From: Candidatus Methylomirabilis oxygeniifera
GTDB taxonomy: Bacteria > Methylomirabilota > Methylomirabilia > Methylomirabilales > Methylomirabilaceae
Reading direction: 5' to 3'
Length of the DNA stretch: 34,514 nucleotides
Assembly (NCBI GenBank): GCA_016190255.1
Contig: JACPQX010000030.1
Span: forward strand, 1-34,514
Positions 422 through 27,622 of the stretch are shown here, piece by piece. A model generated the notes under the pieces. The model was not told where the DNA came from. It made no database searches and saw nothing but the letters and a program-made list of their open reading frames with translations. A program made the translations under genes and the position numbers. The first letter of the stretch is position 1, and each line of letters begins with the position of its first letter.

Positions 422-424
422 GAA

Positions 425-493
425 GCGTTCAGCGTTCAGCAATCAGCGCTCAGGTTTCATTGTCTCTGGCTGACCGCTGACGGCTGAATGCTG
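425..493. repeat. Inverted heptamer array A (NNTCAGC type)
   Basis: The left arm has four tandem heptamers, GCGTTCA GCGTTCA GCAATCA GCGCTCA. After a short spacer the right arm carries GCTGACC GCTGACG GCTGAAT, whose reverse complement is again NNTCAGC. Five positions are kept and two vary. The array begins 4 nt after the pafA stop and could fold into an imperfect hairpin in the mRNA. It is one of five heptamer arrays in this window. Confidence 0.85.
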
Positions 494-15700: not shown

Positions 15701-15824
15701 GTTCCGGGTTCCAGGTTCCAGGTTAGATGCAAGTTCCAGGTGCCAGGTTCCAGGTGCCAGGTTCTTTGAACTCGGAATTCTGTTTCCCAACTTGGAACTC
15801 GGAACTCGGAACATGGAACTGTTC
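15701..15824. repeat. Inverted heptamer array B (CNNGTTC type)
   Basis: The left arm consists of GTTCCAG/GTGCCAG units (register CAGGTTC) and the right arm of GGAACTC/GGAACAT units, whose reverse complement is CGAGTTC/CATGTTC. Both arms therefore read CNNGTTC, inverted around GTTCTTTGAAC. The right end stops exactly at the livM stop codon (TTA at 15825 on this strand). The array fills nearly the whole gap between livM and livH, and could fold into a long imperfect hairpin in the transcript. Confidence 0.88.
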
Positions 15825-23889: not shown

Positions 23890-24304
23890 CATCACCCACC
23901 AGCCGCTGTCGATCGAGCCTCTTGTGAGGGCGGTCACGCGGCCGAGCTCGGGCGCCGTGGCAAGCTTCCTTGGGGTGGTCAGGGAGCAGACGCGCGGGAG
24001 GCGGGTGCTGTACCTTGAGTACGAAGCCTACCGGGAGATGGCGATTCCGAAGATGCGAGAGATCGCCGACGAGATTCGCGGGAAGTGGAAGGTGGACGAG
24101 ATCGCCATGATCCACCGGATCGGACACCTGGAGATCGGCGAGGCGAGCGTGGCCATCGCCGTGTCTGCCCCGCATCGCCACCAGGCCCTTGCGGCCTGTG
24201 CCTACGCCATCGACCGCCTCAAGGAGATCGTCCCGATCTGGAAGAAGGAGGTGTGGATCGATGGCGAGGAGTGGGTCGGCCCGGGTACCTGCGAACACCA
24301 TTGA
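23882..24304 (+). CDS. moaE: Molybdopterin synthase catalytic subunit MoaE
   Basis: The large subunit of molybdopterin synthase, 140 residues. It contains the early SGAVASFLGVVREQTRG segment, the LEYEAYREMA strand, and the active-site region HRIGHLEIGE...APHRHQALAACAYAIDRLKEIVPIWKKE, with the Arg and the two catalytic-site lysines in place. It pairs with the MoaD encoded just before it (8-nt overlap, ATG placed 5 nt after GGAGG). Its stop codon TGA is contributed by the first unit (TTGACGG) of heptamer array C. Confidence 0.94.
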   Translation: MFDITHQPLSIEPLVRAVTRPSSGAVASFLGVVREQTRGRRVLYLEYEAYREMAIPKMREIADEIRGKWKVDEIAMIHRIGHLEIGEASVAIAVSAPHRHQALAACAYAIDRLKEIVPIWKKEVWIDGEEWVGPGTCEHH

Positions 24305-24386
24305 CGGTTGACGGTTTACTGTTGACGGTTGACAGCTATGTTCAGGAATTCATCTTCCGTGAACCGTGAACTGTCAACCGTGAACG
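24301..24386. repeat. Inverted heptamer array C (NGTTNAC type)
   Basis: The left arm is TTGACGG TTGACGG TTTACTG TTGACGG TTGACAG. The right arm is GTGAACC GTGAACT GTCAACC GTGAACG, whose reverse complement reads CGTTCAC GGTTGAC AGTTCAC GGTTCAC. The array sits between two convergent genes. It begins inside the moaE stop codon and ends 3 nt from the fadE stop codon, occupying the whole gap. It could act as a two-way hairpin terminator, although no T-tract is seen. Confidence 0.88.
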
Positions 24387-26202: not shown

Positions 26203-26303
26203 GGTACAGGGTAAAGGGTTTAGGGTATAGGGTTTGGCATGAGAGTGAGGTCATTGAGCCTGTAGAGCTTTTCCTCTACCCTCTACCCTATTCCCTATAC
26301 CCT
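26203..26303. repeat. Inverted heptamer array D (AGGGTNN type)
   Basis: The left arm is GGTACAG GGTAAAG GGTTTAG GGTATAG GGTTTGG. The right arm is CTACCCT CTACCCT ATTCCCT ATACCCT, whose reverse complement reads AGGGTAT AGGGAAT AGGGTAG AGGGTAG. The right arm overlaps the 3' end of fadA: it encodes the last codons (GYRE) and the TAG stop. A ~38-nt unique spacer separates the arms. Confidence 0.88.
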
Positions 26304-27478: not shown

Positions 27479-27508
27479 CTCTTCTCTCTCGCGATCATCC
27501 CATCAGGT

Positions 27509-27601
27509 GTCATTGCGAGGGCCCTCCTCACTCGTCATTGCGAGCACCCGAAGGGTGCGCGACAATCTCGACGGGATCGCTTCGCCTCGCTCGCAATGAC
27601 A
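27509..27601. repeat. TGTCATTGCGAG / CTCGCAATGACA dispersed repeat, copy 1
   Basis: The 93-nt stretch is bounded by TGTCATTGCGAG at 27509 and CTCGCAATGACA ending at 27601, perfect inverted ends. A second GTCATTGCGAG starts inside it at 27534, making a nested copy that shares the right end and contains a CACCCGAAGGGTG hairpin. It fills most of the gap between fadN and fadA. Confidence 0.88.
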
Positions 27602-27622
27602 GAACGCTTTAGCAGCGTTCAG

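Follow-up and report, generated by a model that had tools for sequence, protein, structure and literature searches.

Paired heptamer arrays in the window

Do short repeat arrays that share one layout, each spelling it with a different heptamer, belong to one kind of element? The question is raised by positions 15,701 to 15,824 of a contig of Candidatus Methylomirabilis oxygeniifera (JACPQX010000030.1; G000:C7). We analysed the whole contig of 34,514 nt, hereafter the window; its assembly (G000) comprises 1.66 Mb in 159 contigs and is 80% complete, and 14 congeners were compared with it. An earlier note on this DNA had described four loci, each with a left arm of tandem degenerate heptamers and a right arm of the same heptamer inverted, and all four are present. 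A detector that looks for a period-p self-similar arm, followed within 120 nt by an arm of the reverse-complement unit, returned exactly these four loci at p = 7 and zero pairs at p = 5, 6, and 8-12. The same held after shuffling: no pair turned up when the window was dinucleotide-shuffled 30 times or when its intergenic DNA was shuffled 500 times, the control that the note had proposed as a possible refutation. With no pairs in shuffles or at other periods, a chance origin is ruled out.

The four elements span 424-493 (TCAGCNN/NNGCTGA), 15701-15819 (GTTCCNN/NNGGAAC), 24301-24385 (GTTSACG/CGTSAAC), and 26203-26303 (AGGGTNN/NNACCCT), with the following arms:

424..453, + strand: element 1 left arm, four TCAGCNN units, starting 2 nt past the Pup-ligase stop codon
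469..493, - strand: element 1 right arm, four GCTGANN units (the left arm inverted); RNA fold of 420-500, z -4.0
15701..15764, + strand: element 2 left arm(s), GTTCCNN / GTGCCNN units in two blocks
15789..15819, - strand: element 2 right arm, AAC(NNGGAAC)4, 31 nt
24301..24333, + strand: element 3 left arm, GTTSACG units, including the moaE stop codon (24302-24304)
24357..24385, - strand: element 3 right arm (CGTSAAC), ending 4 nt away from the acyl-CoA dehydrogenase stop
26203..26233, + strand: element 4 left arm, AGGGTNN units
26273..26303, - strand: element 4 right arm (NNACCCT), with the thiolase stop codon (26288-26290, - strand) inside the arm

Element 2 is flanked by the livH start (15686) and the livM stop (15825), and element 4 by an acyl-CoA dehydrogenase start and the thiolase stop; all four of these genes lie on the - strand. 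The moaE stop codon falls within the first heptamer of element 3. All four elements are predicted to fold well as RNA (z -2.9 to -4.5), and an Rfam search of the window gave zero matches above the gathering score. Two further features of the window are the C-terminal part of a Pup ligase (2-421, + strand; PF03136), that is, a pupylation gene in this organism, and a GTCATTGCGAG...CTCGCAATGAC repeat in the gap at 27479-27622, with kindred repeats in the same gap of three congeners (G001, G006, and G011).

Recurrent heptamer families in the genome and genus

Across 678 kb of G000, in stretches partly selected for holding arrays, we found 54 period-7 pairs and none at periods 5, 6, 8, 9, 10, or 11. 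The unselected contigs, which include the window, hold nine pairs in 312 kb, or ~29 per Mb. A congener assembled as a single contig of 2,752,854 bases (G006) has ~17 pairs per Mb and uses other heptamers (AGGGTNN and TCAGCNN). The heptamer is not specific to its locus, as the earlier note had supposed; instead, about eight families recur genome-wide (GTTCCNN, GTGCGNN, GTTTCGN, GTTCANN, GTTSACG, AGGGTNN, TCAGCNN, and a few others), some of them shared across phyla. Nor are the arrays copies of one ordinary repeat family, the other outcome that would have undone the note's proposal.

The proportions of the families are lineage-specific. The GTTCC family of the 15701 locus occupies dozens of sites in G000, and matches to GTTCC/GTGCG-type patterns number 172 in G000, 230 in G007, and 50 in G002, which form a trio of sister species, compared with 0-10 in the 12 other congeners. 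AGGGT arrays are present in all 15 genomes of the genus. G005 is an array-poor congener, with 3 AGGGT and 4 GTTCC/GTGCG-type pattern matches.

Anatomy of the elements

The elements measure ~60-120 bp and consist of two inverted arms around a loop, each arm with about four 7-nt units. A unit comprises a kept 5-nt core and two free nucleotides, the linker, where the variation sits. Arms of the GTTCC family most often contain four cores, whether in G000 or in other phyla, and the AGGGT and TCAGC families mostly show this peak too; the canonical GTTCC arm is 31 nt long, (GTTCCNN)4GTT. In G000, the third unit of both arms frequently reads GTGCC, a feature not shared by other phyla. Polarity is fixed: among 24 genomes, 21 of them selected for containing the forward form, GTTCC-loop-GGAAC has 135 matches (overlapping registers counted) and the opposite order has zero. 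The recurrence of period 7, about four units, inverted arms, and one polarity bears out the note's view that a pattern rather than one sequence is kept.

Units assort independently across the arms. Linkers of partner arms in G000 match less often than those of arms from different elements (0.09 vs 0.17), and in other phyla they match no better than unit-shuffled arms; hairpin-templated copying between arms is rejected, as facing linkers do not match above controls. Replication slippage is likewise rejected, since units next to each other show no greater similarity than order-shuffled ones, and so is the copying of arms from one template, since near-identical arm pairs are as frequent as in column-shuffled arms.

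Most loops have no counterpart at other elements, and the flanks show no evident target-site duplication. The element at L029:14243 and one non-orthologous element in G007 have a common loop, and a loop of ~45-53 nt is common to three GTTTCG loci in G007. Because these few non-orthologous loci have common loops, some copying of whole elements does occur.

Two other sequence features accompany the arrays. A separate short palindrome, GTAGGGGCGACCCGSCGGGTCGCCCCTAC, is found at many loci either next to the loop of a heptamer element or within it (L022:4035-4186, L212:6350-6487, and L214:6131-6269, and L228, L233, and L250 in G007). Multi-arm GTTCC elements are connected by a recurring linker type, GCTTCGCAG / CTGCGAAGC (L025:16509-16621, L226:264-432, L031, and L049).

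Placement at gene ends

Of 53 elements in G000, 29 have a stop codon no more than 10 nt away, compared with 6.7% expected from non-coding positions (P = 1.5e-20; genes called by a simple codon-usage caller). Elements in other phyla likewise tend to lie right against stop codons. The usual setting is an intergenic gap within an operon or one that separates convergent genes.

Kept positions and switched heptamers in orthologous gaps

Orthologous gaps between relatives, the comparison that the earlier note had recommended, reveal heptamer switching at kept positions. Among 86 gaps compared between G000 and G007, with flanks ~88% identical, arrays occur in both genomes in 18, in G000 only in one, in G007 only in five, and in neither in 62 (Fisher P = 3.9e-13). 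The G000 contigs were partly selected for arrays, so the share of occupied gaps is inflated in absolute terms, and the association is not. The sole G000-only gap is that of 26203, where G007 has GTGCG units below the threshold, and we therefore count 19 shared gaps. Two of the five G007-only gaps (L221:827 and L223:3906) also hold, by eye, subthreshold arrays of different families in G000.

The heptamer family is the same in eight of the 19 shared gaps and different in 11, and every G000 GTTCC array of the compared set has a counterpart of another family in G007. In the livH/livM gap, the outer flanks are alike (...ACAG and TTCTTAAAATGG), and the arms are GTTCC in G000 and GTGCG (GTGCGNN) in G007. 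The gap at L029:14243 holds three families in three species: GTTCC in G000, GTGCG in G007, and GTTTCG in G002. The gap of element 3 has GTTTCGN arms in G007, G002, and G013. In the acyl-CoA dehydrogenase/thiolase gap (26203), most congeners have AGGGT arms around unalignable loops and G007 has GTGCGNN; some congeners have no array there, with short AGGGT-like remnants or nothing. The same design spelled differently in the gaps of sister species suggests that the design, rather than the word, is kept. Retention of the loop while the arms switch is rejected, as loops resemble their orthologues no more than they resemble permuted partners (P = 0.9).

Two TCAGC-family elements of G000 (L041:716-790 and L032:719-846) are nearly identical in G007 across arms, linkers, and loop, with flanks 82-88% identical, and seem far more conserved than the GTTCC/GTGCG elements. 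In the G007 gap orthologous to L223:10019-10258 (L250), there is a MITE-like insert of ~105 bp with inverted ends (AGTGCCGTTCCAAC...GTTGGAACGGCACT) that is absent from G000.

Occurrence in other phyla

The exact inverted GTTCC pattern was found in 95 stretches among GTDB contigs, with many copies in few genomes. Record names include Chloroflexi, Acidobacteria, Planctomycetes, Myxococcota, Deltaproteobacteria/Deferrisomatales, Elusimicrobia, Verrucomicrobia, Acidimicrobiia, Saprospiraceae, and Methylomirabilota. One heptamer family reaches about nine phyla beyond that of the host. The flanks of these stretches carry additional heptamers at period 7 (96 pairs, seeds included), compared with 0-4 pairs at the other tested periods. 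A single viral contig in IMG/VR has a match, and viral spread is rejected on that account. In three genomes (G041, G042, and G043; L072, L073, and L074), linker dinucleotides at different loci and in both arms come from a small genome-specific palette, for example GG/GC/GA in G042 and GA/TG/TA in G043.

Origin and maintenance

What is observed comprises the architecture, unit number, polarity, placement, lineage-specific repertoires, and shared gap positions with a switch of family. The reading that we prefer, at a probability of roughly 0.45, is that the elements are REP/BIME-like palindromes spread by a trans-acting factor, with newer families overwriting older ones at post-stop sites. A transposase- or recombinase-like factor would recognise the inverted 4+4 core array. 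Each lineage would have one or a few active families, which would spread into post-stop gaps, preferentially into those already holding an older element, which the newcomer would replace; in older copies the cores would be kept under selection and the linkers and loops would drift. The displacement step, the factor, and the function for the host are what we infer here. In mRNA, the element can form a strong predicted hairpin at the gene end, so a putative REP-like effect on the host (mRNA stability, partial termination, or separation of operon genes) is likely. Against such spreading, the search for a responsible protein gave none: Y1/RAYT transposases and RVT_1 reverse transcriptases are absent from the three richest genomes, two of which are only ~80% complete. 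The mostly unshared loops are odd for recent spread by copying, the flanks lack an evident target-site duplication, and the shared positions could reflect independently attractive gaps as an alternative to replacement in place.

The arrays might instead be binding sites for chromosomal DNA-binding proteins (e.g., HU/IHF-like paralogues), with one core per protein at 7-bp spacing; selection would maintain these sites, and a change of partner protein would make them switch. The same interpretation has been offered for the Geobacter sites discussed below. This is possible, if on the unlikely side. In its favour are the kept cores with free linkers and the units that assort independently across arms, as well as the linkers that are unpaired across the hairpin and lack a sense-strand G.U preference, and the AGGGT cores at 26203 that last through most of the genus around unalignable loops. 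However, protein binding gives no account of eight cores arising together in dozens of gaps or of both arms switching heptamer within one species split. The several families per genome would need several proteins of one geometry, and some elements were copied whole, loop included.

Selection for pairing in RNA hairpins (terminators, RNase III sites, or 3' stabilisers), with period 7 as a by-product of slippage, is quite unlikely, although the predicted RNA hairpins are strong and the sites follow stop codons, within operons or between convergent genes. Pairing alone requires neither a single polarity nor period 7, facing linkers match no better than they do after shuffling, and neighbouring units resemble each other no more closely than expected by chance. 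On the sense strand, G.U pairs are fewer than A.C pairs in G000 (33 vs 56) and equal to them elsewhere (31 vs 31), and without a bias of G.U over A.C, RNA base-pair selection at the linkers is rejected. Given linkers that are unpaired across the hairpin and show no sense-strand preference for G.U, the property conserved at these positions is not RNA pairing.

Templated end addition would have a telomerase-like or other terminal enzyme extend the two 3' ends at a double-strand break by about four heptamers each, after which end joining would leave inverted arms of one heptamer around a filler loop; such fragile palindromes would rebreak and be rewritten with the heptamer made at the time. The observed polarity, the single heptamer in both arms, the unique loops, the fixed unit number, and the in-place switching are all predicted by this scheme, and bacterial RNA-templated makers of tandem-repeat DNA exist, as in DRT10, an enzyme that produces such DNA on an RNA template (PMC12632851). 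We nonetheless hold it to be very unlikely: the reverse transcriptase domain RVT_1 was not found in G000, G007, or G002 (two of them only ~80% complete), linkers vary from unit to unit, unlike copies of one template, and loops common to several elements point to whole copies. Ordinary REP/REPIN elements moved by RAYTs are highly improbable, and for the sister trio this reading is largely refuted. The elements do resemble REP/BIME in placement, size, and inverted pairing, and Y1 transposases (PF01797) are present in 10 of the 15 genus genomes, but none was found in the three richest in GTTCC/GTGCG arrays (G000, G007, and G002; 80, 94, and 81% complete), and the arms are heptamer arrays with free linkers that differ between families.

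We also consider unlikely a system, present in several bacterial phyla and dedicated to this task, that would write inverted array pairs, about four heptamers to an arm, at gene ends and now and then overwrite them where they stand; position and architecture would then be inherited, with a new word taking over both arms in one lineage after another.

Sequence is the usual basis for recognising repeat families. Here the shared properties are format and location, not sequence: the format (period 7, four units, inverted, one polarity, post-stop) is conserved and the sequence is exchangeable, so that sequence-based repeat finders split or miss the elements. Sister species that differ in state at the same gap provide a testable system for the spread and mutual replacement of short intergenic palindromes, and the annotation of operon ends, gene C-termini, and terminators is affected in many uncultured phyla.

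Comparison with known systems

REP, BIME, and REPIN elements are short palindromic intergenic inverted pairs that lie at gene ends in many copies per genome; within a REP family one sequence is kept, and REPs are associated with Y1 (RAYT) transposases. The elements described here are likewise extragenic inverted pairs at gene ends and operon junctions. In place of one conserved palindrome of 20-40 nt per family, they have 5-nt cores at period 7 with free linkers and mostly unshared loops, and the Y1 (TnpA_REP) gene that accompanies REPs was not found in G000, G007, or G002. Unlike REPs, the heptamer families here switch at one site.

Cyanobacterial STRRs are intergenic, direct tandem repeats of heptanucleotides with degenerate positions. 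Other heptanucleotide repeats include TAACTGA of Beggiatoaceae, with 169 direct sets and one indirect (PMC4679880), and GGGNATC of Xanthomonas and Nostoc, with a preference for four units (PMC4692102). All three resemble the elements here in their intergenic location, 7-nt unit, and degenerate positions, but they are direct repeats of one heptamer, and inverted paired arms are not in their descriptions. Whereas STRRs are direct arrays of variable copy number, the arms here are inverted, have one polarity, and peak at four copies. A search of paper text for the array strings gave no bacterial genome paper among the matches listed.

The closest published precedent that we found is in Geobacter metallireducens, where eight pairs of sites share the architecture: 15 of the 16 sites consist of the heptanucleotide MTYCTGA (TCAGRAK when read on the opposite strand) repeated five times in tandem, the layout of the alignment passes from one strand to the other, and one pair lies between proB and proA (PMC2700814). 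These sites were described as one species' set, hypothesised to bind a protein, with IHF/HU suggested (PMC2700814). The earlier note knew of no described family with inverted arms and locus-specific heptamers, and this precedent (PMC2700814) tempers that claim as regards paired arrays on opposite strands. The class 3 sites of Geobacter, like the elements here, are pairs of tandem heptanucleotides on opposite strands at variable spacing (five units there, about four here); the other Geobacter classes have octamers, TCTCCGTS[Y] units, or pentamers, whereas the period here is always 7. The consensus MTYCTGA is not matched by the families found here (GTTCC, GTGCG, GTTTCG, GTTCA, GTTSAC, AGGGT, and TCAGC), of which TCAGCNN is nearest. 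Other heptamers, other phyla, a fixed polarity, and heptamer switching, to which the Geobacter account draws no link, are all seen here.
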